A stretch of DNA of 64,000 nucleotides, taken from Panopea generosa (Eukaryota > Mollusca > Bivalvia > Adapedonta > Hiatellidae). Location of the stretch: the NCBI GenBank assembly GCA_029582155.1, contig CM055899.1, positions 85,786,056-85,850,055 on the forward strand, read 5' to 3'. Positions 9,401 through 44,301 of the stretch are shown here, one piece after another (the stretch's first letter is position 1; each line of letters opens with the position of its first letter). The notes beneath the pieces were generated by a model. The model was not told the origin of the DNA. It ran no database searches and was given only the letters and a program-made list of their open reading frames with translations. Made by a program: the position numbers and the translations under genes.

Positions 9401-12400
9401 AAATCTTAATTACGCACCAGAAGTTAAATCAATTGGATGATACGAAAATTGATGTAGAAGATTAGTCTTGGTACTCATTCAATTCTATGAATACTGGTAC
9501 CAGTACAACATACTAATGGAAGAAGCTTGATTGTTATTTTTAACTGAACTGATGCACTCATAACATTCAGATATAATATTTTTTGTAACAAGCTTGGTTG
9601 AATAATAATGTTTACACATTGGATTTGTTGAATTTTTTTTTTCTGGGTGACCTTATGCTTTTTCTAAAAGAGTCAACTATCTTGTCAGCTTTTATATAAA
9701 ATCTTATTCTATTTAAAATCTTATACATAACCAGTAATTTGGATTCCTGGTTGCTTTCTGGATAGATGGCAGTTTCAGATCTGACATCGTCTGATTGCGC
9801 AACTCTTGCTTCCTGAGTGATGATAGATGAAAAACGAATCTTGCAGCATTATGTTACATCATTTCAATTTTAATGATATCTTTTTGCCCCAGCTATAATA
9901 GTCTATAACAGCATTCAAAATCACCTATACTGATAATATGAAATCATTTAACTAGAAAAGACTCAACATAGTTTATATAATAAGACAATCAGTATGCAGT
10001 TGTGTTTCCCTAAAAAAATAACAAACCTACCAAAATATAACAAGTACTTTTCATGAAAGATTTGTGAATTTTATTGATTTCAAAATCAACAGATCTCAAA
10101 TCAACTCATAAGATATGAATAAAATAATTTTGACAGAGACATATAAACACTTAAGTAATTAAGCCACTGACTTTTTATGCCATGCTGAGGTGCAGGAATG
10201 TGATTCATTACTCAACCAAATTCTTCCACACATATATATATATATATATATATTAAATGTCACTTTTGCTGCATGATATTTCTTACAGTATTGTTTCAAC
10301 TACCTTTAATTTAAATTTAAAGTAAACATGTGACAATTTAGCATGTACATACCATTTCAAGCAGCAAATGATTGGTTCTTTACTTGGACATATCTCGTGC
10401 GAGGGTGCCTCATATATGGTGAATGCACTTTACAGGAATAAGAAGAAGAACATTCTTGGGAAAACCCAGTATGGCTATACTACAATGGCTGCTTGTAATT
10501 GTTAAATGTAATTCTGGCTGTCTATAGATATAATACCAGAGATCTGTGCAAAATCATAGAAATAAAAAAGAAATTATTCATTTATAAATTTATTTACTCA
10601 ATATTTCAAGTCAGATTTTGTAAAATTTCATATTTGCAACTTTTTTTATATTCATATCACTTTCAGTCAGTTTTTCATCTTGATTCATTATTTGTCCTTC
10701 TTTCAGCGAGAGAGCAAACCAAAGAAATTAAAGAAGCTGCAGAATACATCTGCTAAAGTAGAGAACAGGTTTTCAATCACTTTAAAAGGTAAGAATAGGT
10801 ATATTTTATACTCTATATATGACAAGTCTCCAAAATTGTCACTGAAACACTGTTATAATTCTTAAATAATAAAATATCTCCCACACTATCACTTACATTT
10901 TATTACTGATTTTAAGACAATGGTACCCAGCAATATGTACATTTTCTATTCATTGCTGTACAAGACTATGGTGCCCAGTATGATTTACATATTTTATCCA
11001 TTACAAGACTATGGTGCCCAGCATGAGAAGACAGAAACCCTGGAGGAGTATGTGGGCTCAACAACATCGCCCTGGAATCTTGACTACAGCTGGTCCCAGG
11101 AGGCAAGACAGTTGCGCGAGATAGCTGTCAAATCACCATGGCTCATAGATGATAACTTTGTTCTGAGCCATTTTAAAACTCTTAGGATTGTTAATAAAAA
11201 TGTGAGTTTGTGTATTTACTACTTTTAGTTCACCTGATTAAAGTTTTGCTGAACTATTCCTACAAATGGTTGTCTGGCATTATCATCTTCCTGTACAAAG
11301 TTCTGTTTCTTTTAGTTTATACTAAATTAAGTTAACTCAATTTCGAAAATTTGAACCATTCTTGAGTCTGATTCTTGGACAGAACCAGTACTAAGCGCTG
11401 TTTTTTTGAGAGGCGTCAGATTGAACTTGAGATTGAACCCAAAACTTCTGTTGTGAGGGGTCAACACTCTATCCATTAAACTACTGCTCCACTTAAATTT
11501 TCTTTATTTTAAGCAACCACCTTAGCAGATTTGGAGAGAATAGTGTGACATATTGCACATTTCTGAGGAGCTGTTTGAAGATTTTTATTTTATATCTCCT
11601 GTGACTGCTTTGTTTCTTTATGTATTGGAAGTTGCCAACAGAAACTGTTGGAGTAGCTCCAAAATAAAAAAATCATAATATATGTATTGAATGAGAAGTT
11701 CAAATTCAATGGATGACAAGACCATTATGCAGATAAAAAAATGATGTCCATCCACTATATACAAAATTATTGTTTGTTCGGTTGTTTATTTAGACTTGTG
11801 ATTTTTGTCACCATTTAAAATCCACTGTGACAGTTGTTATGAAAAGTAGAGTAGTTTTGACATATGCTATTTGTTTGATATCATCAACAAATTGTGCAAA
11901 TTATTTTGGCCTTCTCTCTCAAATTGTCTTTTTCATAAAATATTAAAGATTGTCACCATGCAGGCACAAAGACCATCTGAAGATGGAGTTCTTCATAATA
12001 TATATATAAAAATTTTAAATTTCATACATTAATATTTCCCATTGAATAGATTCTCTGGTTTGGTAATTTTGGCAATATCTTCATCAGAAATTCAAAAAGT
12101 TGCCACATTGGCATCATAATTTGGATTAAAGTGCAGTCAAACCTGCCTTAAGCAGCCAGTCAAGGGAAGGAACAAAAGTGGTCTTTTTTAATTTAAGACT
12201 TAGAAGAAGGTTGTTGCTTAATACTGGTTAATTTGCTTTGAAAACTTAGATGTTGGAAATAGCAAATGTGGCTGCTAAAGACAGGTGGCACTTTATAGAA
12301 GGGACCCCTTACATGGGTTTGACTGCATTAAACATAGGAAATTTATAGAAATGACAACTGCTCTATACCGTTTTTTAGCGTTTAAAAAAAATGACAGCAA

Positions 12401-15400
12401 TCCTTATTAGGTTGTTCCTTTTCAAAGACATGTTGTGTTGTGTTTATTTTGTCACTCCCCATAATCTAACATTGTCTTTATGTCTTGTGTACAGTTTTCT
12501 ATCTTGTTCTATTGCAGGTCACAGAAATAGACCCAAACTTACTGAAATTTCAAAACTTAGAAGAACTTACGCTCAGCTGCAATTTAATATCAGAGATTGA
12601 GTCAAAGAACTTGCCACCTAACTTAAAGGTACATGAGTTAACATTAATGTTTATATGGGTATCAGTATCACTTTCAAATGGAATAAGTATTGAAGTACAT
12701 TTTATATCTATATTGAATGACACTGGGGTGTTACATTTTTATGTTTATATAGATATCAGTATCACTCCCAAATGTAATTATTATTGAAAAACATCCTTAA
12801 ATACTTATTAAATGGCACTGGGGTGTTACATTTTTATGTTTATATAGATATCAGTATCACTCTCAAATGTAATTACTGGATATATTGAAAAACATCCTTA
12901 AATTCTTATTAAATGACACTGGGGTGTTACATTTTTATGTTTATATAGATATCAGTATCACTCTCAAATGTAATTACTGGATATATTGAAAAAAACATCC
13001 TTAAATTCTTATTAAATGACACTGGGGTGTTACATTTTTATGTTTATATAGATATCAGTATCACTCTCAAATGTAATTACTGGATATATTGAAAAACATC
13101 CTTAAATTCTTATTGAATGACACTGGGGTGTTACATTTTTATGTTTATATAGATATCAGTATCACTCTCAAATGTAATTACTGGATATATTGAAAAAAAC
13201 ATCCTTAAATGCTTATTATATGGCACTGGGGTGTTACATTTTATGTTTATATGAAAGCCCTGCATTTTAAAAGAGGGCTTAGATATGTTCTGTTATGAAA
13301 TTCAATGTATATTTCTTCTGACTATAATTATGGAGATTTTAGTATTATCATTATTACACATATTGTCAAAATGCTAAAAATCTGTAAGAATTATTGTCTG
13401 TCCTTTCGTCAGGTGTTGGAAGTTTGTGCCAATGAGATTAGTGACCTTTCAACTCTGTGCGTAAAACCACCCAGACTTATCCACCTTGGGCTTGGCTACA
13501 ACAAGATTTCATTTATTGGCGATTATCTTACTGGTGGATATTGGTGAGTGAAGTTTTGGGTCACTGCTTCCATTATTATTAATTAATCAATACAAAGAGA
13601 AATAAAATGTGTTTGGAATTAGGAGACAACCCTTTAACATTTGAGTAGAAGTGGGTGCAGAGATTTTATCCCAAATACATCAATTCAGAATGTTAAAAAT
13701 AAATCATTTTTGCTTTTTTCCTTGAGTGGCTGCTTAAGACATGTTTAACTTTGTTTATTTTTTTATTTAATCTGAAAACTATTTTAAAAAGAGGCTCATA
13801 AATATTTAGTTTTTTTCCCATCCTCTTCACTAATATTTTATTTCAAAGTATCAATCTTATCTATTTGTTATTGTCTGGACCCAGTTAGCTCAGCCGATAG
13901 CCTGTCAGACTTCTAATCCAGAGGTCATGTGTTTGATTCCCTTGCCCAGCCTAAGTTTCCGTGATAATGAATTACCAAATTGCGTCTCATTGTCATTTGT
14001 ATTCCACAGCTGATTCAAGTGGGAAAGTTATCAGTTATTTGTGACGATGGGTGTGCTTGAGTACTGGTTAACCTTCCAGAATCCTAGGTTAACTGATCAT
14101 CTGTAAGCCCTTGATGGCATAAGAATGACGCTAAAAATTCAAACATTTCATTATTTGTTTATTGAGTTACAGGTTGTGTCTTCTGTCTCTGGACCTGAGC
14201 AACAATAACTTGAATGGTCTTCTAGATGTAGTCAACAAGGTCGGTTCCCGGTCCAAACATATTCATTATTTATTTATTACATTACAGGCCATGTCTTCTG
14301 TCTCTGGACCTGAGCAACAATAACTTGAATGATCATCTAGATGTAGTCAACAAGGTCTGTTCCCTGTCCAAATATATTCATTATTTATTTATTACATTAC
14401 AGGCCATGTCTACTGTCTCTGGACCTGAGCAACAATAACTTGAATGATCTTCTAGATGTAGTCAACAAGGTCTGTTCCCTGTCCAAATATATTCATTATT
14501 TATTTATTACATTACAGGCCATGTCTACTGTCTCTGGACCTGAGCAACAATAACTTGAATGATCTTCTAGATGTAGTCAACAAGGTCTGTTCCCTGTCCG
14601 AATATATTCATTATTTATTTATTACATTACAGGCCATGTCTTCTGTCTCTGGACCTGAGCAACAATAACTTGAATGATCTTCTAGATGTAGTCAACAAGG
14701 TTGGTTCCCTGTCCAAATATATTCATGATTTATTTATTACATTACAGGCCATATCTACTGTCTCTGGACCTGAGCATCAATAACTTGAATGATCTTCTAG
14801 ATGTAGTCAACAAGGTCGGTTCCCTGTCCAAATATATTCATGATTTATTTATTACATTACAGGCCATGTCTACTGTCTCTGGACCTGAGCAACAATAACT
14901 TGAATGATCTTCTAGATGTAGTCAACAAGGTCTGTTCCCTGTCCGAATATATTCATTATTTATTTATTACATTACAGGCCATGTCTTCTGTCTCTGGACC
15001 TGAGCAACAATAACTTGAATGATCTTCTAGATGTAGTCAACAAGGTTGGTTCCCTGTCCAAATATATTCATGATTTATTTATTACATTACAGGCCATATC
15101 TACTGTCTCTGGACCTGAGCATCAATAACTTGAATGATCTTCTAGATGTAGTCAACAAGGTCGGTTCCCTGTCCAAATATATTCATGATTTATTTATTAC
15201 ATTACAGGCCATGTCTACTGTCTCTGGACCTGAGCATCAATAACTTGAATGATCTTCTAGATGTAGTCAACAAGGTCGGTTCCCTGTCCAAATATATTCA
15301 TTATTTATTTATTACATTACAGGCCATGTCTTCTGTCTCTGGACCTGAGCAACAATAACTTGAATGATCTTCTAGATGTAGTCAACAAGGTCGGTTCCCT

Positions 15401-18400
15401 GTCCAAATATATTCATTATTTATTTATTACATTACAGGCCATGTCTACTGTCTCTGGACCTGAGCAACAATAACTTGAATGATCTTCTAGATGTAGTCAA
15501 CAAGGTCGGTTCCCTGCCCAAGTTAAGGAATCTTGTTCTCCAAGGCAACCCACTCTCCGTATGTATCTCAGTTCTCGTATAGCTAGTTATCTAAGAGAAA
15601 TTTTAGATAAACATAGATTCTTTCATGACTATATATTTTAACTTGATTAATAAGTTAGCTCATAGCTTTGTATTTAACTCTTAAGTTCATTTCCTTGGAA
15701 GAATTTTTTTTTTCGAGAGGCTATCAGACCTGATCGAACATAAGACCAAAGCCACGACTTCTGGTGTGTGAGTGGCCAATACTCTATCCACTGCAAGCGC
15801 CTGCTCTAAATTATATATATTAACAGTAATCACACAAATTACTTATTCCAGTTGATTCCTGGTTACCGTGGTTACACAGTGGACAGTCTGAGAAAGCTGA
15901 GCGTACTTGATGACATCATGATATCAGCAGATGAGAGGCATTATTTCAAAGGGCTTGCAAGGAGAAGAGGTGATACACACTATTTTGAAATTGTTTTACT
16001 TTTATTCTTTAAAATCAACATCTGTCACATCATCATTTTATGTGTATTGTCTGATGTGTATTATCAGGTATCCTGCAGACTTTCACATGTTATTTAACTA
16101 AACAGTGTATCATATGCTGATTTGACCTTTGTCGTTCTGAGGTCATGCTAAAGCTTTTAGATTTTGAATTAAATTCATTCGTTTTAAGATAATATAATAT
16201 AAATTTCTAGTACCTACATGTAAGCATCTGTTGTTAGAAGTTAAGCTCATAATTTAAGGTCATAGGTCAAGGTCAAGGACCTGAGGAGTTTATAATCATA
16301 ATCAAAATCTAGAGGAAGGTACTAAAGACATTTTTGCCAAAGATGTCACAGTTGTTATAAATCATACAAATTTAAAATGCCTGGATGATGTATAATTAAT
16401 TGTATTTTATTTCAAAATTTATATTGATGAATTCAACACTGCCATTACTTTCTGTGAGTAGAAGTCACATATGAATTAATAAATTGATTGAAGTTAAAAA
16501 TTGAATATTTAGCATTATTTTATAAATGCCATTGAGGGCTAACGGATGATCAGTTAATTTAACCATTCTTTCCTGGTATCATTGACATTTTAACTATAAC
16601 TCAAGAATGCCTATCTCTGCAAGTAACTGATAACTTTACCACTTGAATCAGTGATGAGAGACGCAATGTTTTATATCAATCATCATGAAGAATGTGGCTG
16701 GGCTGGGATTGCAACTCATAATTCCTGGATTGATAGACACACTACTGACTGGGCTAACCAGCCTGGGCATTTCATATGAAATTTTGAAACTGAACATCAG
16801 AGGGATTTAGCGACACATGGTATTTATTTATAAAATTCATCATCAAAATCCACATTAGTTTCATTTTACCGAGCAGTTTTTCACGCCTTGAAATATTTCT
16901 TCTTTTTTCACAGAGTTTATTCTTGATGAGGCCAAGGTCAAGTTGGCTGTGACCTACATGAAGGGAATACCAGTGCCAGATGAGATTAAGGTCTGTCTCC
17001 ATTTTATATATAGTTTTCTTCTTCTTTTTCTCTCTGTGAATTTTACTGTCCATGCTTGTTAGATTACTTGTTGTCTAAGTAATGGTTGTATATTTTCTCA
17101 GCATGCCACATATGAGGTTCTGGACAAAAAAAACATACCAAGACTTCAAGTTTATTTTTTTAGTGAGGTTTAACACCATTTTCAACACATCGCACGTTAC
17201 ATATGGCATATCTTGTTTTACTTGCCAACCACTTTAAAATATAAAACAATAAAAACGTTTATAAGTGCATTACTAAGGTCCTCCATGGCAGGGTCTAAGA
17301 CATCATCTTAAAATCACTTACATCTCACTGCTGAGGTCACTGGTTCAAACCCAGCTTGCTGCCGAAAATACTTTGAGAAAGTTTTCCAGTAACTTGCAGT
17401 GATTCTACTTAAATTCATTCTCTGGGGTCTTCATCCAACACTTAAATTAGATGTCATGTACCGTACAACCCCGGATAAATTGAACACACACCATTATAAA
17501 ATCACCCCTCTCCTCAATTTTTTATGGAAAATATTATGACTTACCACCCTGAAAGTTGATCTTTAAACCAATAAATACAAAGATTTCATTCAGTTTAAAC
17601 ATTTGAACGTTGAAGAAATTTCTCATCACTTGCACTGTTATATTTGCACTATGGTATTTTACACATATGTTTCATACAAATTTATAAATTTTAATTTCTT
17701 AGGATTTTTCAAAATTCATAACCCCCGGGGGAATTTATTCCAGGTATACAGAATAATCTGTCATGAGTTTAAAAAGGTTTGAAGCAAAATGTTCATGATT
17801 ACAATTCCAAGTATTTAAAATAAATTTTATTTTATTCTTCATGTTAGACAAAATGAAATAAATGACATTGTCTTTTTTCTACAGAACCCTGAGGATCAAC
17901 CAGAATTTCCTGTTATAGAGAGAAAATATTTTGTGCAATTTATGTTCCTGGAGGACTCAGCCTCAAAAACAGAAAGTCTCCAAGTGTCTCATGATGATGA
18001 ATTAGAAATTGGGGATTTCTCTGCAGAAATGACAGACAGAACAGAACTACCAGATCCGGATATCATGGTAATTTTGCCAGCAACTTAAGAAATAGGTCAT
18101 GGTTCTCTTTACCAACTGGTCCAAGATGCCATTTCGAGATCACTTACCTCTCACATCTGTGGTCATGGATTTAAGTCAAGCTTGGTCCAAAAGCTTTATT
18201 TGTGAAAGTTTGGCAGTTATTTGCAGAAGAATGGTGGTTCTATTCAGATTTTTATATATAGATCTGGAGTCTTCATCCACCAATATTTGTATGCCTTACA
18301 TATAACATATGATGTGTTATAAATGGTGTTAAATTCATTAAAATTTGGTCAACTTCAGCAGTGATTCATTCTTGGCATTTTTGAATTTAGAAAATTGTTC

Positions 18401-21400
18401 ATTTTTTTACCTCTGTTTATCATCCGAATAAAAAAAATCTAAACTGAGGTTGAATTTATTGTACATTTCTATAAAAAAATCTTCTCTCCTTTGAATCTGT
18501 CTTTAATAATTAATGACAGGCCCAAATGAGAGTTGATTAATTATTGCTATTTTAATTAAGGTATTCCAACATCTGCTTGAAAAGAGCAAAACATGTGCCA
18601 TTTCAATTTTCACAGAAAGAAATGTAAAATATATTAGTTTACATGGCTTGCTTTCAATTAGCCAATCAAAATACAGCTTTCAAAAATGTTTGAAAATCGT
18701 CTGAGCATGTCATAACAATATGCAAGCAAATATGGAATAATTCAGTTCTGTTTGTTATTTAGTAAGAATAAGTATGTGGCTATCAACCAATGATAATTAA
18801 TGGTGTGTTTCATTAAGCAATTTAACAGGTTCAGAGCAAGATATGACACTCAGTAAATCTGCGGATGACTTAACATGAAGGATGCAAGTATTGTCTGCTG
18901 ACTGGGCAGTGGTGTGTAAGTAATCCACACCTCTGATAGATAGGGAAAAGTTTTTTTATAATATTAATTCACTTTCAACAGGAACTTGAGAATGGGGACC
19001 AGTCAATAATTGAGAAGAATGTCATCTTTACCCAGGAACCAGACATCACACACACAATAGACAGAATAGGTAATTATCATTTAGTTTTATATTTGGTTCC
19101 TTTTTGTGATTATATTTATTTTTTTTATTAAAAATAGACTTTTGCAATTTATAATTTTATTACTCACAAAATTTCTGAAATCACTGGTTGGTTGATAACT
19201 TTTGATGACATCATGTGGAAATTATGAATGGAAACCACTCAAAAAGTCAATAAAGATAGGGTTAGTGGTTCCCCTACAATGTGGAGCCTAAAGTCTGATC
19301 TTCTTTGATGATTTGAAGTGGGAGTGTTTGTAAATATTGCACATGGCTGGTTTACTCAGATTATTATATGTACACCTTAGTAACCTGTTGACAGTATATC
19401 TACATAAATGAACTGTGATTGCTGCTGCAAAGGCTTTAGCTATAATATACCATATAAGCAGAGTGGTAGTGTAGTGGATAGAGTGTTGGCAGCTCATGCC
19501 AGAGGTAACAGGTTAAATCCCAACTCAACCAAAAAACTACTCTCAATACTGGTTGTACCCAGAAAGCGAACTCAAGAGCTGTTCATATAAGCTTTGAGCT
19601 TTCTTAGCATTTGAGCTGAAATAAATTAGCATTAACTAATAACCAGTCAAACCTGTCTTAAATAGCCAGTCAAAGGAAGGAGCAAGAGTGGTCTTTTAAG
19701 ACAGAATGTTGCTTAATACAGGTAAATATTTGGTCTGAAAGCATTAAAAGAAATGAGAAATAGCAAATATAGCTGCTTAAGACAAGTGGCTGCTTAATAG
19801 AGGTGACTGCTTGCACAGGTTTGGCTGTACAATGAATTCCATAATATATAGTTCCATAGAAATCAGTGACTGAACTTCTGCTGAAAATAGGAATACCTGC
19901 AATTAGGCTGCATACATTTTGACAAAAGACCACCCTTTGTTGAAATCATTCAGATAACTTCTGTTGAGTCTGTAGACAATTGCCTTTATAATGGGTTTGC
20001 CATTGGTTCAGAACTTCTCCACTACTGTGGAGATGTCAACCAGTCTTCCATTTACTGCAGGACAAAAGAAATAAACTGGTTGTCATATGCAGGATCTGGA
20101 AGAAATCACTCCAGTGGAGTTTGATAGAGCTCCATCGTCTTTCTATCCAGTAAAACTGGCAGCCATATAACTCTAAATATGGTTATTACTCACCAATTTT
20201 ATCACATTAAAGATTATATATGACACCCAGTTTTATTGATGGCAGGAAAACTCAAAACTAATCAGAATGCAATAACATTTTTCTGTTAAAAACTGAAAAT
20301 TTCTGACTGTGTGCACAAAATAACACTTATGTATTGACGTATAACCTTTATTTACTTAAAAGTTATCAAATTAACAGTAATTGAATATTGGCACAAACTT
20401 TAATATGTCCCGCAATAAAGTTGTGCAATGTTTACATTGAACTCCGTAAACTTCACGAACAAAGTCTCGAAAACAATATTGGGACCGAGTCTTCACGATG
20501 TTATCCAATGATTGATCGGAAACCCAAAAGCAGTTTGTTACATAAAATGTCAGGTACATAAAATGTCATGTATATAAAATGTCAGGTACATAAAATGTCA
20601 GGTATATAAAATGTCAGGTACATAAAATGTCAGGTGGTGGGTTAGCTGTTCAGTATATGTTTATTCTCAATTACATCTATTGGAACATTTCATTCATTTG
20701 TGTTTATTTTTGTTATCATTAACTTAAGCCGAGATGCCTGCTGAACCAACTCCAAGTCCAGAAATGACAGAAAAGAAAAAAGAAGAACAAAATGAACCAA
20801 GGGTTATAAAGGTACATCTGATTTTTTGCATGAATTTGCTGTTAGCACAAACTGACAGATGACAAAGGATTCATACTTACCATGTGTGGCCATCAGTCCA
20901 GGGGTTGTGAGTTTGTGTGGCCATCAATCCAGGGGTCATGAGTTTGTGTGGCCATCAATTCGGGGGTCATGAGTTTGTGTGGCCATCAATCCAGGGGTCG
21001 TGAGTTTGTGTGGCCATCAATTCGGGGGTCATGAGTTTGTGTGGCCATCAATCCAGGGGTCGTGAGATTGTGTGGCCAATAATCCAGGGGTCATGAGTTT
21101 GAATCCCTGTCTGTCCACAGACTCTGTGGTGATTAATATACCACACTGCATCTCACTGTCATTCATCTCTCACTGCTGATTCAAAGTGGAAAGTTATCAG
21201 TTACTTGTGGAGATGGGTGTGCTTGAGTACTGATTAACCTTCCAGGATCCCATAAAGAGTGATAAGGTTCACTGATCATCTGATAGCCATTGAAACTAAA
21301 TATTCAAACAAGGAAACAAATCATACATGATCTGTCAAAACTTTTTGCAAGATTTTTTAATTATTTGTCAATGTGGAATTTTAGAAGTCAAGAAAATCAG

Positions 21401-24400
21401 TCTTGTCTTATTTGGAGATCTTGAAGAATGAAACTCTGTTCTTCATCCATGGAAAAAGATGCAAGGCCATTATAAATTAATTGCTAGATTATCACCCCTG
21501 CCCACTCCCTAATTTTCATGCCACCCAACCTTTTTTTTTTCATAAAAGTAAAATAAATAAAAAAAAAATTAATAAAAAAAAAAATTCTCCCTTTTAAAAA
21601 TTTTTTTAATGAGATCTATCAAATAATTCCTGTATTAAAACTTTACAGTACTTTACCCCATGTCATGGAATTTTAACATTCCAAACATTAACAAAATTCT
21701 CTTAATTAAAAGTGAAGTGGTCTTGAAGGAAGTATTTTAATATGACCAAACTCACAATGCTGTATGGAACATCATAGATTTGAAGGGAGTATATCAGGTG
21801 GAAAAACACTACGCAGATGTCTTAAAAAATAATATAATTATTAAAATAGATAAAAAAAACATTTTAATATGTCACAAAATATGTTGCAATTTTAAGTGGT
21901 AAATCTGTTTTATCTACCAGGTGTGTAGCTCAAGTTAGAAAGTCCCTTTTCAATATATTATTTTTGCATGTTTCAATAGATATCCTTTTGGCAATATTGG
22001 ATCAGTGAGTATATTTAGGCATGATTTATAGGAAAACATGTTTTTAGCCAATTTTAAAAATCCTTATAAAATCCCTTTAAAGTTTGTTATTTTCTGTCTA
22101 ACTTTGTGAACCTTAATGTCTTCAAATAATAGCACATCGACTCTCATTTCACTTCTAACTGCATTTCACTCGTAAGAAAATAAAAAAGTTTATTTATATA
22201 TTTTTCAGATTGCTCCAGTAAAGTCTGAACGTCACCCATGGGGAGAAGAAATTGAATTAAACTGGTCACAGATGGTAGTGCGTGATGACCTACTTTCCCT
22301 GCGTGACTTCCTGAAGCAGGGCATGGAGATCTCTGTTGTGGAGGAGTTGGTAAGGATTATAAAAAGCTTTGTATCATGGGACTGTTAATTTAATTATTGT
22401 ATGAACTTTTGTGGGTTCAGTCCTCCTCGAAGGCTATTCTTTGTGTCCTTGAGCAAGACACTTTATCCACATATGCCCAATACTGGTTCTACCCAAGAAA
22501 ACTTTGAGTGTGATTTGTCTAAGTTGTAAGAACTTGTAAGATCTAAAACTGTTGGTTCAACTTTGTAATAAAGATCAAATTCTGGGATTTATTGCAGTTA
22601 ATGAGTGAAAAGTTATTTAGTACAAACAAGATTAGGTCTGGATCAGTTATGTAGAAACTTTGTTTTAAATTGATCATTTTGTTTGTCTTCTTTACATTTA
22701 ATTATGATATAAATTAGTATTTGCAATAATCTAAACAACACAATAACATAATAATGTATCATTAATATTGATTGTTTTGGCAGGAAAACATTCATTTCTT
22801 TTAAAAATTATTGTTTTTAATGCATATCTGAGTTTTTACCTAAATATGTTGATGAATTTAGGACAATGATGCTTATTAAAATACAAATTAAAGCGCAAAC
22901 CTTTTATTTGGCTTCAAGTTTGAAAGTACTAATGAAGATTTGATGTAGAAAATGACATGTACAGGTTTTGTCATTTATTTCATAATAATGAATCAGTGCA
23001 TTTGAGTTGAGCTTGGTACAAATGTTAATGAACTCGGATCCAGCGTTCAACACAGGATTTCGAGGAACCCAAATTTCAGGAGGAATCCTAACTTATGGAA
23101 GATTGGGATTTCCTTGGGATCTTTGTTTTTTGGTTTAAGTGTCATTAAAATACATATTGTCCTGTCTAATTGAAGAAAACAACAAGCGAAAATCTCTGTC
23201 AAGCTATTTATAGTTGCCTTCTGTGTGAGCAGTTGCTGGTCTGTTTAAAGCATTACCTACATTGTGAAGCTAGTAACAGATTTCAAATGACGAACATGAG
23301 CTGCTGATGCTTGTGTTAAGTTTGAAAAGCTAGGTATGTTCCTAATGGGGTGCAGTTATCAGTTGGCTCATTGAAAATAGTGCTTTTTTATATCTCAAGT
23401 GGGATCTTTGATTGTCACGAGGGCACCCAGATTTAAGAAGTAGGGGTTTGTGTGTGATTCTTAAGATAAAAAATTAGTGTCAAACCCTACTGACCCAGGT
23501 CCTACCCCCCCCCCCCCCCCCCAAATAAGTCTTGAGAGTGATTCACTTAAGCCCTGAGCGTATTTTCGTATCGACCTGAAATAAATTAGTATGAGTCAAC
23601 ATTATGTATGAAGTAGGTTTGCATGTTATAGCTGTTATGTTTCAGGCATTATTGTACCCCGTGATCCCAGAGGAACCGGAGGAGGGGTCATTCCCAAACC
23701 CTAAGGTTCGATACCAGCACCTATCTGTACCCAGTTTACATGTTTTTATTAACAGTTAAATGTTACAAGAGCACAATGAAATATAAACCAGCAGTAACTG
23801 TAACTTTAATGCTATAAAAAAATGTAGGTACAGATGGTTATGCTCTTGCCTTTCAAACTATGGTGAAGGGGAATTAAGTGTTACCCCTGTTTGTCCGTGC
23901 GTCCGACTGACCATATGTCTGGTAAAAATTGATTTCTGATCAATTACCTCTGAAAGGGTATGTATTTAATGCTATAAAAATGTTGGTTTGCCCTCGTCAC
24001 TAGAAGAAAGATAAAGGGGCAATAAATGTTACCCTTGTACATACATCAAGAGTAATGGCCCTTTTTTACTTAATTTTCTCTAAAAAAATGGTTATGTTTA
24101 ATAACTTATGAAAGGGTTTAGGTATTTAGTTAATATTTTGTATGTACCTGTATAATTATAAAATACAGGTCAGGTTTGGTATTTGTCAATATTGGTCAAG
24201 TTTTATCGGAGTACTAATGGTGCCTTTTTTGCCTTAATTTTCAGTAAAAAATTGGTTTTCGATCAATTGCTGGAACATTCATGTCGGCAAACACATTTCT
24301 AGATTTGTCAGTTTGGTTAAAACTAATGTTGCTGTGATAAAGACACATTGTGCATTTCTTATTAAAGATAGAAATTAAATTGAATTGAATTTATTTTAAG

Positions 24401-27400: not shown

Positions 27401-30400
27401 TGTTACAAATTTTAATTATATTCCTAACGATGAATTACCTAGATATCTTGAACAAGGAATATACCTGTGGAGTGCACGGTCATGTGGTAGAGCATCGAAC
27501 CCATGATTGGAGGGTTGTGGGTTTGATCCTCCGCAATGGCTATGTGTGGTGTCCTTGAACAAGGCACTTTTTCCATAGGGTTTGATTCTCTGCAATGGCT
27601 ATGTGTGGTGTCCTTGAGCAAGACACTTTTCCGTACATGCTTAGTACTGTTTCAATCGAGGAAGACTTTGAGCGTGTTTTATCTAAGTTGTAATAATTAG
27701 TTTCACAATCAATCGAAGTAAAATAAATTAGTCTAAACTGAAGAATATACCGAGGGCTTGGCGCAAAACTATTGTAACTAGGTTTTTGCAAATTGTTCAG
27801 GAGAAGGAAAAAACTGTTTTTTATATTCGTCTTTAGATATTTTTGCAAATAGTTTTCAAATTCAAATGAAAACTGCATTACTTACATTATTAACAAGTGT
27901 TATCAATTAAAGCTTTAGTATTACTTGATTTATTTGTAAAAGTTTGAGTTACAATAGTGTTGCGTTGAAAATTCAATAAAACTGAATTTATATTTGGTGC
28001 AAAACTATTGTAACTCAAGTTACAATAGTTTTGCACCAAGTTTTACAAGATAAATAATTAATTTCTTAGTTTAAAAATATTGTAACTCAATATAAAACTG
28101 TTTAAAATTATGTTGTTATTAATCCAAAATCAATTTTAATTCTATTAAAGTTTAACACAAACATATAAGAAGTATTGGAAATAAAGAAAAAACATATACA
28201 AAAGTATATAAAGTTGTATTATTTATGTTTTAGCCTATAAATACAATAATTTTGATAGTTCTCATGTTAACAAACAATTAACCTATTTCATTAACATTAT
28301 AAAGCATAATATTTCAGTTATGAAAGTATTAAATTATGTTAATATAAGTAAATATATAAAATTATATTTCCAAATTAGTATTTAAATTGTGTAAATTTAT
28401 ATAGTATGCAGATACTATCTGGACCACAACATAATAGTAACTAACTGTCATGTTTAAGGATGCGACATTTTGATATTAATAACCAGTAAATATCAAACAA
28501 GAAACTGTTGTTTTCAGTCTTATAAAAAATATTGGTGAATTTTTACCTAGGGTGCCATAGGCAGTTGAGATCAAATTGCATACTACATGATTGTTTTGGT
28601 TAAAACCTCATTTATAGACAGACAAATAGACAAAAAATAAACCTGTGTTTTATTCAGTTAAAAATATTCGAAAAAGTTATCGTTTAAATTTAAACAAGCA
28701 GCAGGTGGGTACTTTGCCCCATGGGCGGACTATACCAACATCACTAACAACTGTACCATCTACATTTGTCATACTGACTCCAATTCCAACTGCACCTTCA
28801 AAATCCATCATACCAAATTAATAACACCTTTTAGTCTTCATACATGTACCAACTCCACCACCATGGTACTGTAGCCTTTACACCCACAAACTAACATCAT
28901 TATACCCACTGTACCCTATACAACCACCATACAAACATCATCAACTTTACATTCTACATCTAGTATACTAGCACCATTTTCAACTACATCCTCAACATCG
29001 TCCAAACCAAATCCATAAGACACTGATCCTTTATATTCATTACATGTATCCACTCCATCGCCATACCAACTCAACTATCCACTGTACCTTCAACATCCAC
29101 CATACCAACCCCACTTCCCATTGCATCCACTACATCCATCATACTGACCTAACTAACCACTGAACCATTACACCCACCAATCCAGTACCATTATCCACTG
29201 TACATCTACATTCAGTTAATGAACTCCAATGTTCCCTCTACATTACTTCAGTATATGGGTTATGTATTCTCTCTACCAACCATTATCTATAATACCAACC
29301 AGAACCTCATTACTTACTGTACCCTCTACACCCGCCATTCAGACTCAACTACATACTGTACCTTTTACATCAACAATACCAACATCACTACCCACTGTGT
29401 CCTAAACATCCACATACTAACTTTATTACTCACAATCCACATTATATCAACATCACTACCCACTTTACCCACTGCACCATACCAACATCGCTACCGTCTG
29501 TTTCATGGACACTACATCCACCATACCATCTCAACTCTTCACTGTTCCTTCTACATCCTCTATAATTCTTTACTTATTTCACTACTCACAACCCCCTAAA
29601 TATCAACATCACTACCCATTGCAACCATTACATTCATTATACCAACTGCAACACCACTACTCAATGTCCACTCTGCATCCATATAACTACTCGCTGTACT
29701 AACTACATCCACTATACCATATCAACCATCTTAATCACCCATTGTTCCCTTTACACCCATAATACCAACTATACTACCAGCTGTACCCTATACAGCCTAC
29801 ATACCAACTAAACTACTAGCTTTAATATCAATACCCACCATACCAACTACACTACCAGCTGTACACTTTATATTCGCATTACCAACTACACAACCAGCTG
29901 TACCCTCCACACCAAGAATACAAACTACACTACCAGCTATACCTCCATACTCACAATACCAGCTACACTACCAGCTGTACCCTTCATACTAACATTACCA
30001 ACTACACTACCAGCTGTACCCTTTATACTCATATTACCAACTACACTACCAACTATACCCTCCATACTCACAATATCAACTACACTACCAGCTATTCCCT
30101 TTATACTCACATTACCAACTACACTACCAACTATACCCTCCATACTCACATTACCATCTACACTACCAGCTGTACCCTTTATACTCACATTACCAACTAC
30201 ACTACCAACTATACCTCCATACTCACATTACCATCTACCCTACCAGCTGTTCCCTTTATACTTACATTACCAACTACACTACCAGCTGTTCCCTATGGTC
30301 TACACCCACCATATCAACTATACTACCAGCTGTACTGTCTATGACTACGATACCATCTACACTACCAGCTGTACTCTCTTCACCCACCATACCAACTACA

Positions 30401-33400
30401 CTACTAGCTGTACCCTCAACATCCACCATAATAACTACACTACCAGCTGTACCTTCAACACCCACCATACCAACTATGCTTCAAGTTGTACCCTCAACAC
30501 CAACCATACCAACTATGCTTCCAGTTGTACCATCCACACCCACTATATCATCTATGCTACAAGCCATACCCTCTACACCCACCATACCAACTACACTACC
30601 AGCTGTACCCTCAACACCCACCATACTAACTACACTACCAGCTGTACCCTCAACACCCACCATAGCAACTATGCTTCAAGTTTTACCCTCAACACCCACT
30701 ATACCAACTATGCTTCCAGTTGTACCATCCACACCCACTATATCATCTATGCTAAGAGCCATACCCTCTACACCCACCATACCAACTGCACTACCGGCTG
30801 TACCTTCTACACTCACAACACAAACAATGCTACCAGCTGTACCCTCTACACCAACAATATCAACTACATTACCAGCTGTACCCTCTACACCCTATATATC
30901 GACTACACTACCAGCTGTAATGTCTACACCCACTATACCCACTACACTACCAGCTGTATCATCTACATCCACAGTACCAACTACAGTACCAGATGTACCC
31001 TCTACACCCACACAACCAACTATAGTACCAGATGTATCCTCTACATCCACCATACCCTATACACTACCAGATGTACCCTCCACACCACACAACCAACTAT
31101 AGTACCAGATGTACATCTACCATACCCACTACACTACATGATGTACCCTCTACACCCACACTACCAACTATAGTACCAGATGTACCCTCTACACCCACAC
31201 TACCAACTATAGTACCAGCTGTACCCTCAACACCCACCATACCAACTACATTACCAGCTGTACCCTCTACACCCACCATACCCACTACACTAACAGCTGT
31301 ATCCTCTACATCCACAATACCAACTACAGTACCAGATGTACCATTTACACCCACACAACCAACTATTGTACCAGATGTATCTTCTACATCCTACATACCC
31401 TCTACACTACCAGATGTACCCTCTACACCCACACAACCAACTATAGTACCAGATGTACATCCACCATACCCACTACACTACAAGAGGTACCCTCTTCACC
31501 AACACAACCAACTATAGTACCAGATGTACCTCTACACCCACACAACCAACTATAGTACCAGATGTACATCCACCATACTCACTACACTACCAGATATACC
31601 TTATTCAACCACACTACCAACTATAGTACCAGATATACCCTCTACAACCATTATACCCCCTATACTACCAGCTGTACCTTCTACAACCACAATACCAACC
31701 ACAGTACCAGCTGTACCCTCTACACACATCAAATTAATTCTGAGAAACCAAGGTTTATTGATATCTAAAATATAATGTTTTGGTTCTTTAACAGCAATTT
31801 TAAAATAATTAGATACAATGTTGACTTCTAGTACTGATATATTAAAAAGAATAATACTGAGTGTACCAGGTAATTAGAATAATATCTCATCATTTTGGAA
31901 GTTTTCAAAAGGGATATATTGGTTAAGTAAAGTTATAATTGGTATACATTAAAAGTATGTTGAGTAATATTGTTCGACTGGACGGCCTTTTTATTATAAA
32001 AAAAATGCAAACCAAACAATTCACTGCAAATTTTAATAATCAGATTTTTATGGCTCTTTTATAGCACAATTAATTATTAATCATCAATTTCATTGTCACT
32101 AATGTCCAAATCAATAAAACATTTAACATATTCATCTGACTAAATTACTTTATTATCAAATTAAAATGTTTCAAAGATGAGTAAAAAAAAAAAAAAAAAA
32201 AAAAAAAGTCTCTTTACCTGTATTTCTTCAAAATCTTACTAGATTTTTCTGAACTATCATTTGAAACTAATGTATTGCAATATTCTTGGACTAAATAAAA
32301 GTGTGGTTATACAAGATAACTGGGTTTAATAAAATTTAAATTCAAGTTACAATAGTTTTGCACCAATATAAATAAAGGTCTCCAAGATATTATTTGGTGC
32401 AAAACTATTGTAACTCAAGTTACAATAGTTTTGCGCTAAAGAATTAGTGTATTTGAGATACAATATTTTCACCAAAAGTGAATATCTTCAAAGTTATTTA
32501 AAATATCAGGACCAAATTTTAACACAAGATGCACATTGTAAAACTACAGTAATTTATGCAAAAAAACGATTTTTGGAAAAAACGGAGTTACAATAGTGTT
32601 GCGCTGAGCCCTCGAATTACTGACTTCAGTGTATATTGCTTTAACTACTCAGAGTTTAATTTCACTGGTATTTAACTACCTCCTGGATCCGCGTTTGAGC
32701 AAACCGACATCATCAATGTCAGTATGTATATAAACTGATGTCATTATATAGACACATGTGAATTGTTAAGAATAGTTCAGAATGTTTATATTTGAACGTT
32801 GAAAAAGCGTCAAATTTAATTTATGAAATGTGATAAATAGTTAATTTAACTGCTGTTTTCCATTACTGAAAAATAACTCCCTCATTATTTGTGAATAGGA
32901 AGAGCCACTAGTGATATGTCATATGTTAAGACCTCATTGAATTATTTTTCAGTAATGGAATAGTTGAATGAACTCCATTTAAAACATCTTCCAGTCCACA
33001 GCCATGTGTGGTTTTCCTTGAGCAAGATTTTTAACCACATAGATTAGTACGGGTCATTCCTTCCATCCAGGAAGACTGTCAGATTTGTTCAGTTATAAGA
33101 ACTTGATGTTTCACAATCAATGTAAAATATATAAGACTAATTTTTAACAGCATAAAGCGGGAAGTAGGGCTGGCAGTAGAGCTGCTGTGAGTCGACTGAG
33201 TCGTAAGGTGATACCAACACAGCTGTGATGTGAACTTTTGTTTTCCTATATTACATTGTATATTATATTCCTCATGTAATTCTGCACACATTTGGTGGTC
33301 AGTTCCATGTGGAGGGCAATCACTGTTTTTGAGTGTGTATTCTGACCAGGGCAAATCAGACACAGTAATGATAAACATAAGTCATACTGTAAACCATGGA

Positions 33401-36400: not shown

Positions 36401-39400
36401 CCCCCCAACATTCACAACCCTAGCCACATGGCATGTGCCACTGTCAGAGTTTCTGGAGGGAGAGTTCGAGTTCCAGTCCGTGTTTTCCCAGGGCGGGGTT
36501 GAGGTTGCCTCCACCATTAGAAGCATTGATACAGATTCTGCTAGAAAGGTAGGTAACTCTATACGTCTTGATGCAGCTTTTTATTAGAGTTTGATTGTTT
36601 TTTACTTACATATAAATATATATATATAATAATTCTCCTGTTTTTTATTATATACTGGTGGATGTTTCTGGGTGGTTGGTTATAATATTTTCTCATCATT
36701 TGCTTCCTAAATTAAATTTAGTAATATAAGAACACATATAGATGGACACATATAAAAAAACATATACAGATAAACATAAAACATGCAACATAACACATAT
36801 ATGCATGTGGCATGATATACAAGTATTTTTGATAACACAAATCACTATCATTTGGTAACACATACAAATATGTAACACATATCTTTGATAACTCAAAAGC
36901 AATCACATGTCATATACAAATGTATATTGAACATACAAATGTATGTTGTTACCCATACAGATAACATATTGAACATACAAAATTGCAATGTATGGAGTCA
37001 TGTTACAGAAACAAATTTGTAACAAATACATATACAATCATGGTATATGTAAAACACAATAAACACAAAGATGTGACATGATTATACATATAATGTAAAC
37101 ACAAATATATGACAGATAAGAAACATCTACACAGGTAACTCATACAAACATACATACATACATACACACATACACACATACACACACACACACACACATA
37201 CACACATACATATGTGTCACACAAACATGTAATAAACTTGCCTGTGTAATCATTAAAGTCTATGTTTCTTTCATCATTATATGTACCCCAGAATAAACGT
37301 GTCACACAAACATGTAATAAACATGCCTGTGTAATCATTAAAGTCTATGTTTCTTTCATCATTACCCATCATATAGACAGTATACCCTGGAATAAACGTG
37401 TCTCACAAACATGTAATAAACATGCCTGTGTAATAATTAAAGTCTATGTTTCTTTCATCATTACCCATCATATAGACAGTATACCCTGGAATAAACATGT
37501 CACACAAACATGTAATAACATGCCTGTGTAATAATTAAAGTCTATGTTTCTTTCATCATTACCCATCATATAGACAGTATACCCCAGAATAAACATGTCA
37601 CACAAACATGTAATAAACATGCCTGTGTAATAATTAAAGTCTATATTTCTTTCATTTACCCATCATATACACCATATACCCCAGAATAAACGTGTCTTAC
37701 AACCATGTAATAAACACGCTTGTGTAATCATTAAAGTCTATGTTTCTTCCATTATTACCCATCATATAGACCGTATACCTGGGAATAAAAGTGTCACACA
37801 AATATGTAATAAACATGCCTTTGTAATCATTTAAGTCTATGTTTCTTTCATCATTACCCATCATATAGACAGTATACCCGGGAATAAACGTGTCTCACAA
37901 ACATGTAATAAACATGCCTGTGTAATCATTAGAGTCTATGTTTCTTTCATCATTACCCATCATATAGACAGTATACCCCAGAATAAAAGTGTCACACAAA
38001 CATGTAATAAACATGCCTGTGTAATAATTAAAGTCTATGTTTCTTTCATCATTACCCATCATATAGACAGTATACCCTGGAATAAACGTGTCACACAAAC
38101 ATGTAATAAACATGCCTGTGTAATCATTAAAGTCTATGTTTGTTTCATCATTACCCATCATATAGACAGTAAACCCGGGAATAAACGTGTCACACAAACA
38201 TGTAATAAACATGCCTGTGTAATCATTAAAGTCTATGTTTCTTTCATCATTACCCATCATATAGACAGTATACCCAAGAATAAACTTGTCACACAAACAT
38301 GTAATAACATGCCTGTGTAATCATTAAAGTCTATATTTCTTTCATCATTACCCATCATATAGACAGTATACCCCAGAATAAACGTGTCACACAAACATGT
38401 AATAACATGCCTGTGTAATCATTAAAATCTATGTTTCTTTCATCATTACCCATCATATAGACAGTATACCCCAGAATAAACGTGTCACACAAACATGTAA
38501 AAAACATGCCTGTGTAATAATTAAAGTCTATATTTCTTTCATTTACCCATCATATAGACCATATACCCCAAAATAAACATGTCACACAAACATGTAATAA
38601 ACATGCCTGTGTAATAATTAAAGTCTATATTTCTTTCATTTACCCATCATATAGACCATATACCCCAGAATAAACGTGTCTCACAAACATGTAAGAAACA
38701 CGACTGTGTAATCATTAAAGTCTATGTTTCTTTCATTATTACCCATCATATAGACAGTATACCCGGGAATAAACATGTAATAAACATGCCTGTATAATCA
38801 TTAAAGTCTATGTTTCTTTCATCATTTCCAATCATATAGACAGTATACCCCAGAATAAACGTGTCACACAAACATGTAATTAACATGCCTGTGTAATAAT
38901 TAAAGTCTATATTTCTTTCATTTACCCATCATATAGACCATATACCCCAGAACAAACGTGTCACACAACATGTAATAAACATGCCTGTGTAATAATTAAA
39001 GTCTATATTTCTTTCATTTACCCATCATATAGACCATATACCCCAGAATAAACGTGTCTCACAAACATGTAATAAACACGCCTGTGTAATCATTAAAGTC
39101 TTTGTTTCTTTCATTATTACCCATCATATAGACAGTATACCCGGGAATAAACATGTAATAAACATGCCTGTGTAATCATTAAAGTCTATGTTTCTTTCAT
39201 TATTACCCATCATATAGACAGTATACCCGGGAATAAACATGTAATAAACACGCCTGTGTAATCATTAAAGTCTATGTTTCTTTCATCATTACCCATCATA
39301 TAGACAGTATACCCTAGAATAAACGTGTCACACAAACATGTAATAAACATGCCTGTGTAATCATTAGAGTCTATGTTTCTTTCATCATTACCCATCATAT

Positions 39401-42400: not shown

Positions 42401-44301
42401 TTCAGTTTGTATGCCTCAAGAGACCTCACCTATGATCTTCAGTTTGTATGCCTCAAGAGACCTCACCTATGATCTTGAGTTTGTATGCCTCAAGAGACTT
42501 CAACTATGATCTTCAGTTTATATGCCTCAAGAGACCTCACCTATGATCTTCAGTTTGTATGCCTCAAGACAACTCACTTATGATCTTGAGTTTGTATGCC
42601 TCAAGAGAAGTCACCTATGATCTTCAATTTGTATGCCTCGAGAGACCTCAGATATGATCTTTAGTTTGTTTACCTCAAGAGACCTAACCTATAACCTTCA
42701 GTTTGTATGCCTCAATAGACTTCAGATCTTTAGATCTCAGCTGTGGTCTTTAGTTTGCATGTCTCAAGAGACTTCACCTATGATCTTCAGTTTGTATGTC
42801 TTAAGAGACCTCACCTATGATCTTCAGTTTGTATGTCTCAAGAGACCTCACCTTTGATCTTCAGTTTGCATGTCTAAAGAGACCTCACCTATGATCTTCA
42901 GTTTGTATGCCTCAAGAGATCTCAGCTGTGGTCTTTAGTTTGCATGTCTCAAGAGACCTCACCTATGATCTTCAGTTTGTATGTCTCAAGAGATCTCAGC
43001 TGTGGTCTTTAGTTTGCATGTCTCAAGATACCTCACCTATGATCTTCAGTTTGTATGTCTCAAGACACCTCACCTATAACTTTCAGTTTGTATGCCTCAA
43101 GACACCTCACCTATGATCTTCAGTTTATATGTCTCAAGAGACCTCACCCATGATCTTCAGTTTGTATGTCTCAAGAGACCTCACCTATGATCTTCAGTTT
43201 GTATGTCTCAAGAGACCTCACCTATGATCTTCAGTTTGAATGCCTCAAGAGACCTCACCTATGATCTTCAGTTTGTATGTCTCAAGAGACCTCACCAATG
43301 ATCTTCAGTTTGTATGTCTCAAGAGACCTCATCTGTGATCTTCAGTTTGTATGCCTCAAGAGACCTCACCTATGATCTTCAGTTTGTATGTCTCAAGAGA
43401 CCTCACCCATGATCTTCAGTTTGTATGTCTCAAGACACCTCACCTATGATCTTCAATTTGTATGCCTCAAGAGGTCTCACCTATGATCTTCAGTTTTAAT
43501 GCCTCAAGAGACCTCACCTATGATCTACAGTTTATATGCCTCAAGAGACCTCACCTATAATGTGAATGTTGAATAAATAATGAAGGCATTTTATCAATGC
43601 CTTTCTTTACTTATGCCCAATGAAACTGGATGTACATATTGTACAGTACTATTTATCATATTGTACAGTACTATTCATTATATTTGCAGGGTTTTGCATT
43701 ATTAAAATATATTCATTTGCATTTTGAAAGAATTTTAGATTATTGTGTACCAGTGAGATTAATTGTCATAATTATTGGGCAGCTTAAAATGTGCTTGTCC
43801 AACAATGATCCTTATAATTCTTATCCTGACGACAAAATAAATATTTTCATATTTTCAGACGCCCACTCAAGTTATATTTATGAATTAAAAAATCTGTTGT
43901 AAAGTAAGCCTGTAAAAATATTTTACTAGAAATGTAAAAAAGGAGTTTAGTGAAAAGTTTTTTATTTAAAAATATAAGTCTAAAAAAATAATGGTGTTAT
44001 CCAATTGGAATGTTTCATATATAGATCTATATGATCCAACGGGTTTATTAATCTGTCATTTATATAGCATGTGAGTAGTCATGAATACTAACTGGATCCC
44101 ACTTATATAAAGCTATCAGTTCATGTACGTAAATTTGTCCACCCTGTCCAGATGTGTTGCATGTAATTCCATAGTATATAAGTCATGGTCAACACCAAAT
44201 TTATTTGTTTGGCAGAGGCCTTGATATTGTATCTATGGTTTGCATTCTAGCTAGGCGTACTCACCGTAGTCTGGTCTGTACATTTTCACAAATAATTTTC
44301 T

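Follow-up and report, generated by a model that had tools for sequence, protein, structure and literature searches.

A twelve-copy tandem array across a splice acceptor of LRRC43 in Panopea generosa: a probable mirage minisatellite

The stretch of Panopea generosa DNA analyzed here, a 64-kb window, contains a gene for LRRC43, a cilia gene. Its predicted product matches chain 9ijj_5C with an E value of 8.8e-73 over query positions 4–281 (the LRR region and beyond), which agrees with the gene identity given in an earlier note on this DNA; a second stretch matching the same chain (query 369–425) is weak and not significant by itself (i-Evalue 0.13). No second LRRC43 was found among the best candidates scored in the genome, and neither a retrocopy nor a paralogue that could document past splicing appeared among these, all matches with E <0.01 lying within LRRC43 itself. 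Searches across the window with Rfam (gathering scores) and ARAGORN gave no matches. Haemocyan_bet_s and COX1 profiles were likewise negative in the genome; the hemocyanin profile also gave no signal in any control genome and is uninformative. The sequence of one myosin exon points to a mollusc as the probable host. The predicted exons flanking the array exon are the following (a slash marks the exon–intron border).

11031–11201, plus strand: predicted LRRC43 exon, 5′ end not fixed
12518–12628, plus strand: predicted LRRC43 exon
13413–13543, plus strand: predicted LRRC43 exon preceding the array, ends in phase 2, TATTG/GTGAGT
15852–15969, plus strand: predicted LRRC43 exon following the array, starts in phase 0
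16914–16990, plus strand: predicted LRRC43 exon, donor AAG/GTCTGT, as found internally in copies 2, 3, 4 and 7
17885–18067, plus strand: predicted LRRC43 exon
18982–19069, plus strand: predicted LRRC43 exon
20729–20811, plus strand: predicted LRRC43 exon
22209–22349, plus strand: predicted LRRC43 exon
23646–23705, plus strand: predicted LRRC43 exon

The array was delimited by TRF and by aligning its copies, and consists of 12.0 copies with a period of 115 bp, 96% matches and 0% indels. Each unit joins the 3′ end of the intron preceding the array exon to the first 80 nt or so of this exon, and a 3-base microhomology (CAA) is shared by exon and intron flank at the array junction. The acceptors are placed exactly at 14173+115k (14173, 14288, ... 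15438), as expected from the twelve copies at an exact 115-bp period described in the earlier note. Its statement that every copy has an intact ttacattacag holds for 11 of the 12 (...ttacattacag/GCC) but not for copy 1, which has ...ttgagttacag/GTTG; the AG is present in all 12.

14140–15521, plus strand: tandem array, 115 bp x 12.0
14173–14239, plus strand: copy 1, 67-nt exon-like part, acceptor ttgagttacag/GTTG, donor AAG/GTCGGT; most diverged copy
14288–14354, plus strand: copy 2, 67-nt exon-like part, donor AAG/GTCTGT
14403–14469, plus strand: copy 3, 67-nt exon-like part, donor AAG/GTCTGT; unit identical to copy 4
14518–14584, plus strand: copy 4, 67-nt exon-like part, donor AAG/GTCTGT
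14633–14699, plus strand: copy 5, 67-nt exon-like part, donor AAG/GTTGGT; unit identical to copy 8
14748–14814, plus strand: copy 6, 67-nt exon-like part, donor AAG/GTCGGT; unit identical to copy 9
14863–14929, plus strand: copy 7, 67-nt exon-like part, donor AAG/GTCTGT
14978–15044, plus strand: copy 8, 67-nt exon-like part, donor AAG/GTTGGT
15093–15159, plus strand: copy 9, 67-nt exon-like part, donor AAG/GTCGGT
15208–15274, plus strand: copy 10, 67-nt exon-like part, donor AAG/GTCGGT
15323–15389, plus strand: copy 11, 67-nt exon-like part, donor AAG/GTCGGT
15438–15558, plus strand: copy 12, intact 121-nt LRRC43 exon, PCLLSLDLSNNNLNDLLDVVNKVGSLPKLRNLVLQGNPLS, supported by the phases and a gap-free alignment to 9ijj_5C
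14498–15236, plus strand: duplicated three-unit block, 394 identical bases at offset 345 (14498–14891 = 14843–15236)

Aligned with each other, any two of copies 2–12 differ at 0–7 of the 115 sites, compared to 14–18 of 115 between copy 1 and the other copies. End copies of tandem arrays are usually more diverged; copy 12 at the opposite end is not diverged, unlike copy 1.

The exon before the array ends in phase 2, which fits the first base of every copy, and the in-frame LRR codons seen earlier in the copies were recovered by reading-frame analysis. The same analysis confirmed that the acceptor at 15438 (copy 12) is the only one leading into the complete 121-nt exon with its own donor, and that all read-through exons starting at acceptors 1–11 contain a stop, located 87–1237 nt before the exon end. 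Copy 12 is also the only copy with a gap-free continuation along the LRRC43 chain, and it carries both an internal donor AAG/GTCGGT at 15504/15505 and the native donor TCC/GTATGT at 15558/15559. We enumerated 27,689 paths through the array, each with up to four array segments, and found only 13 to be open, namely the path using the 121-nt exon and those joining any single 67-nt copy to the next exon. Whichever of the 12 copies is used, the latter paths keep the frame, and their products would lose 18 residues (VGSLPKLRNLVLQGNPLS), which make up most of one LRR. This product had been overlooked in the earlier note, as had the known mirages and the recurrence at other exons described below. The note had instead considered three 67-nt exons, whose sum of 201 is indeed a multiple of three, but a stop occurs in all listed paths with 2, 3 or 4 array segments of this kind, and likewise in all listed paths combining one copy with the full exon.

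Splice sites were scored with a matrix built from the Panopea generosa genome and seeded with the usual consensus, which leans to strong sites. The acceptors of copies 2–12 scored 12.8 bits (78th percentile among confident acceptors), and that of copy 1 scored 11.0 bits, corresponding to an average acceptor (43rd percentile). On this matrix with its leaning to strong sites, the native donor is weak with 0.6 bits, compared to 5.4–7.7 bits for the internal donors, and the other predicted LRRC43 donors are also low (3.4–8.0). Because the internal donors outscore the native one by about 5–7 bits, the full exon gains no advantage from the strength of its sites, and a 67-nt isoform lacking the 18 residues is a real prediction. 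According to the available part of a survey of alternative splice sites (PMC9225289), long introns go along with a tendency of the sites nearest to each other across an exon to be paired, which would favour the 67-nt copies too. The accessible text on a duplicated globin acceptor describes inefficient splicing, to the distal site only (PMC5389562).

The copies might accordingly act as alternative 67-nt exons, one of which is joined to the next exon, with additional copies raising the share of an LRRC43 shorter by 18 residues. This reading draws on the donor scores, on acceptors 2–12 all ranking at the 78th percentile, on the 12 of 13 open paths that are of this type, and on the prediction that a later LRRC43 exon (16914–16990) naturally uses AAG/GTCTGT as its donor. 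We nevertheless consider it unlikely, because the 18 missing residues fall in a well-conserved part of the 9ijj_5C alignment and paths with at least two copies, or with a copy and the full exon, are closed by stops wherever listed. Moreover, this internal donor is present in copy 12 too, and the exon must therefore cope with it anyway.

Arrays across a splice site were also found at 6 of 118 distinct sampled exons (myosin 4/29, kinesin 2/49, CCT 0/40), and in one of them the donor is present about 35 times. The count leaves out L036, L050, L072, L088 and L108, where the arrays lie close to a splice site without crossing it. Splice-border minisatellites, on acceptor and donor sides and with full splice sites in many inner copies, thus appear rather more probably than not to be pervasive in this genome, affecting about one in 20 sampled exons with up to some 35 copies. 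By extrapolation, it would then hold thousands of natural experiments in which multiple copies of a splice site compete, as well as a constant source of new intron and exon material. Inside the exon matches, arrays covered 0 of 10,515 interior bases. Outside the match edges, array cover amounted to 4.5–7.6% at 60–399 nt; within the first 30 nt, it was 3.0% on the acceptor side and 4.2% on the donor side, so that it falls only gradually towards the exon edges. Next to the edge, cover reaches only about 0.6 of the level at greater distance, which makes some selection against arrays at splice borders likely; complete neutrality is not established by these data. The similar repeats across other exon borders suggest that the splicing machinery can usually tolerate decoys.

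The recurrence also bears on the idea of a splicing rheostat, in which the array length would determine what fraction of LRRC43 transcripts is unproductive and would thereby tune expression under selection. Acceptors 1–11 do score as good acceptors, and reading through from them does end in the stops described above. However, the similar arrays at myosin and kinesin exons look like the outcome of a general mutational process, and the exonic variants of copies 1–11 versus copy 12 (8 nonsynonymous and 3 synonymous, small numbers) are close to the ratio of 173:61 for random changes, giving no sign of coding constraint at these few sites. We therefore regard a rheostat as quite improbable. An assembly artefact with an inflated or collapsed copy number is more improbable still: the draft-genome assembly of one amphioxus mirage was described as aberrant (accessible part of PMC3087553), but the patterned copy differences with the three-unit duplication and the diverged end copy, the further arrays of this kind in the same genome and the length of 1.4 kb, which is short for long reads if these were used, all argue against it.

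In our opinion, the LRRC43 array is probably a mirage minisatellite, of which mostly the exon-facing copy would be used, while the other copies would be skipped or their products degraded. A tandem duplication with one exonic and one intronic breakpoint would have copied the 3′ splice site together with the beginning of the exon. The whole exon would have been retained in the exon-facing copy, so that the gene kept working, and the remaining copies would have turned into intron. Later growth of the array may have come from slippage or from unequal exchange, with three units added together on at least one occasion. The spliceosome would mostly join the preceding exon to acceptor 12, and acceptors 1–11 would represent decoys that are either skipped or yield products with a stop, which would be degraded. 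A near-neutral duplication with use of the exon-facing copy is likely. From the options of the earlier note, the recent neutral expansion fits best, but "recent" can only apply to the inner copies because copy 1 is much diverged.

Mirages, tandem repeats spanning an exon–intron border with splice signals in many units, are already known from amphioxus, and the LRRC43 array is a further case: its units span the exon border and carry splice signals, the exon-facing copy is intact and in frame, and copy 1 was excluded from homogenisation. As far as the available parts of two reports (PMC3087553, PMC3902484) describe them, amphioxus mirages occur in the genes for Adh3, the globins BflGb6 and BflGb9, and TnC, with similar repeats in PGBD5; regular splicing across them was reported for Adh3, TnC and globin, and length variation for some genes. 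In these accounts, boundary copies likewise escape homogenisation, and the units of BflGb6 also contain an intron 3′ end and an exon 5′ part, with 6 and 3 units of 150–160 bp in two haplotypes, compared to 12 units in one assembly for LRRC43. The LRRC43 array differs in occurring in a mollusc and in having a donor-like site in each unit, which completes a 67-nt pseudo-exon. Our literature search (titles and abstract beginnings) found no report of mirages in molluscs among the matches listed, and a candidate precedent, PMC3448621, mentions only repeats inside introns in its available part. In human IFI6 (6-16, G1P3), a minisatellite has also multiplied a splice site within a gene (Turri et al. 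1995, as cited in the accessible part of PMC4526556), but on the donor side and with units used as alternative donors, whereas the LRRC43 array affects the acceptor side. Human genes in segmental duplications contain minisatellites at exon–intron boundaries as well, and the formation of new introns by way of cryptic splice sites has been suggested for them; according to the available text (PMC2812944), these internal tandem repeats differ in having a mean unit of about 30 bp and 4 copies and in affecting recently duplicated primate genes.

It has long been asked how the spliceosome chooses among sites of equal quality, mostly by means of constructs with few sites. Reed and Maniatis reportedly observed in 1986 that identical acceptors of a duplicated splice site compete, with differing exon lengths behind them; their laboratory constructs had a duplicated site, and LRRC43 represents a natural twelve-copy version. 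It is a clean case: a slightly weaker acceptor is followed by 11 equally strong ones, all 12 of the 67-nt units are complete, and only 13 of the paths listed give an open product. If a genome carries 3 to 35 copies of a splice site at many exons, the rule of choice would become readable from ordinary RNA sequencing, and such a genome would also show the limit to which splice-site duplication is tolerated and a possible source of new introns. A candidate rule for such a readout is that the exon-facing copy is always used; among the splice-border arrays, an inner copy outscores the exon-facing copy in 4 of 6.

The array across the acceptor of one LRRC43 exon, described in the earlier note as twelve tandem copies with a period of 115 bp, was recovered as such by TRF (14140-15521, 12.0 copies, no indels), with acceptors at 14173 + 115k (k = 0 to 11). 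Numbered 5' to 3', copies 2-12 differ pairwise at 0-7 of 115 sites, and the unit pairs 3 = 4, 5 = 8 and 6 = 9 are identical, while copy 1 differs from the other copies at 14-18 sites, chiefly in the intronic part and the first exon bases. Because 394 bases recur exactly within the array at an offset of 345, its growth steps include the addition of three units at once. The founding junction joins exon CCCAAG to intron TTCAAAC, with CAA common to both. The intron upstream of the array exon is 1,894 nt long if it ends at acceptor 12 but 629 nt long if it ends at acceptor 1; the one downstream spans 293 nt. The observation is confirmed, and the array is a good example of its kind.

Joining the predicted LRRC43 exons yielded a stop-free product of 428 residues, which matches PDB chain 9ijj_5C, named leucine-rich repeat-containing protein 43, with an E value of 8.8e-73; the 121-nt form of the array exon (15438..15558) aligns to it without gaps. 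We take this chain to be the mouse one of the sperm central-apparatus paper (PMC12297659). Among the best-scoring candidates in the genome (1.47 Gb in 39 contigs), no second LRRC43 copy was found. An earlier LRRC43 intron also contains a minisatellite of 101 bp x 6.1 (12647-13252), which begins 19 bp past the predicted donor and does not cross it. The stretch at 13880-13960 resembles by eye a tRNA-derived short repeat (cccagttagctcagccgatag...); ARAGORN detected no tRNA gene in the window.

Splice-site strength was scored with donor and acceptor matrices trained by expectation-maximisation on the three-family sample described below (118 distinct matches), seeded with the usual consensus and yielding 64 confident donors and 58 confident acceptors. 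The acceptors of copies 2-12 scored 12.8 bits (78th percentile) and that of copy 1 11.0 bits (43rd), and the array exon's own donor reached 0.6 bits compared to 5.4-7.7 for the internal donors of the copies and 3.4-8.0 for the ten other predicted LRRC43 donors. All LRRC43 donors fall at or under the 6th percentile of the confident set, which means little because this set is biased to strong sites. In relative terms, the full exon is singled out by neither acceptor nor donor strength.

Entry into every copy is in frame, since the exon before the array ends in phase 2 and the array exon supplies one base at its start. For acceptors 1-11, read-through runs into a stop 87-1237 nt ahead of the exon end. 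The internal donors (AAG/GTCGGT in six copies, AAG/GTCTGT in four and AAG/GTTGGT in two; slash, splice point) would each close a 67-nt exon. Listing every splice path of at most four array segments gave 27,689, of which only 13 are open, namely the 121-nt exon and twelve in which one single 67-nt copy is joined directly to the next exon, with 18 residues lost and the frame kept open. The remaining 77 one-segment paths contain a stop, as does every path with two (1,287/1,287), three (7,007/7,007) or four segments (19,305/19,305). The product of three 67-nt exons suggested earlier is therefore unworkable, and the single-copy product, which was absent from the earlier note, works in frame. Skipping the array exon entirely leads to a frameshift into a stop.

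The probable mechanism starts from a duplication that has one breakpoint in the exon and the other in the intron, so that the exon stays complete on its far side. Provided that the spliceosome settles on the acceptor linked to the full exon, all additional copies would be silent intron, and the array length would be free to drift. Wrong acceptor choices would mostly lead to stops and probably to decay of the transcript. Because the internal donors outscore the native one, an LRRC43 protein shorter by 18 residues is a testable prediction as a minor output.

The wider interest of the LRRC43 array is the recurrence of such arrays in the same genome. To look for tandem arrays at exon borders, we ranked exon matches by profile score, regardless of repeats, and took the best 30 of 81 listed myosin-head, 50 of 126 kinesin and 40 of 47 CCT matches; after removal of two duplicates, 118 distinct matches remained. 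For one myosin exon, the closest chains belong to 1dfk, 1dfl, 1b7t, 1kk7, 1qvi, 3i5f, 2ec6 and 2os8, entries of scallop and squid myosins, so the organism is probably a mollusc. TRF was applied to the first 60 loci with a score of at least 50, a period of at least 30 and a distance of at most 40 nt from the match, and to the second 60 with a score of at least 40, a period of at least 18 and at most 60 nt. Exon ends were read from homology and splice motif, not from cDNA, by comparison with homologous myosin and kinesin sequences. Arrays cross the splice site itself at 6/118 loci (myosin 4/29, kinesin 2/49, CCT 0/40). The pooled share of 5.1% (95% interval 2.4-10.7%) is not a genome-wide rate, because the families differ and the sampling was non-random.

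Arrays crossing a splice site, with scores of the exon-facing and the best inner copy
L022, myosin donor, 41 bp x 5, AAG/GTAAGT; 12.9 vs. 11.9
L040, myosin donor, 34 bp x 5, CAG/GTAAGC; 11.5 vs. 13.6
L063, putative kinesin donor, 43 bp x about 35, AGG/GTTAGT; 5.7 vs. 9.4
L079, kinesin donor, 108 bp x 3, CAC/GTGAGT; 9.2 vs. 8.2
L027, myosin acceptor, 44 bp x 5, tttcag/ATGAATTCC; 8.2 vs. 12.7
L039, myosin acceptor, 60 bp x 2.6, ctgcag/GTTTGCTAT; 9.1 vs. 10.2

Taking the best site within 4-6 nt of each period step, an inner copy outscores the exon-facing copy at 4/6 loci, and the inner copies are mostly undecayed. Weaker inner copies occur in L022 (7.5 and 7.7 for two of the four), in L040 (7.0, a GC donor) and in L063 (1.3 to 3.8 for 3/33); in L027 and L039, the last period step already lies beyond the array, where no good site is present. 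Use of the exon-facing copy would have to be decided by position, exon definition or exonic enhancers, not by strength.

Arrays with periods of at least 30 make up 5.6% of the sequence in the first 60 loci and 4.4% in the second 60; in the window they make up 16.4%. Long minisatellites of the window lie at 48964-55011 (22 bp x 274), 41263-43558 (37 bp x 62), 37284-39847 (99 bp x 27), 29743-31725 (39 bp x 51) and 62686-63771 (27 bp x 40). Relative to match edges, which only approximate exon edges, match interiors (>60 nt from the edge) have 0/10,515 bases covered. In the nearest 30 nt outside the match, cover is 3.0% next to acceptors and 4.2% next to donors, and at 60-399 nt it is 4.5-5.5% and 7.0-7.6% on the two sides. 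By this profile, arrays at splice borders reach about 0.6 of the level in adjacent intron, which makes them rarer there but far from absent. Duplications with an intact outermost copy look mostly tolerated, not wholly neutral.

Border-spanning tandem repeats were named mirages in amphioxus (Adh3, two globins and TnC), with similar but imperfect repeats in PGBD5; reported there are regular splicing by RT-PCR for Adh3, TnC and globin, PGBD5 being outside that test, copy number variation of BflGb6 between haplotypes, and boundary copies that escape homogenisation (PMC3087553, PMC3902484). In humans, IFI6 carries a minisatellite of donors, part of which are used (cited in PMC4526556), and introns are reported to arise from internal tandem repeats located at exon borders (PMC2812944). 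Because these cases precede it, the LRRC43 array belongs to an already known kind. As a weak negative result, none of the open-access matches listed described a mollusc mirage or a count suggesting that mirages are common in one genome. For competing splice sites, proximity across the exon is described as important with long introns (PMC9225289), and duplicated beta-globin acceptor constructs were reported to be spliced inefficiently and only at the distal site in one study (PMC5389562).

Separately, copies of a dynein heavy-chain fragment, which covers profile positions about 220-313 and in many cases continues with 313-353, are dispersed over >20 genome sites on many contigs, e.g., C16:607299-607580, C9:72153127-72153408 and C20:4450099-4450362. 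These fragments mostly hold an internal stop and look like a spread family, perhaps mobile or retrocopied.
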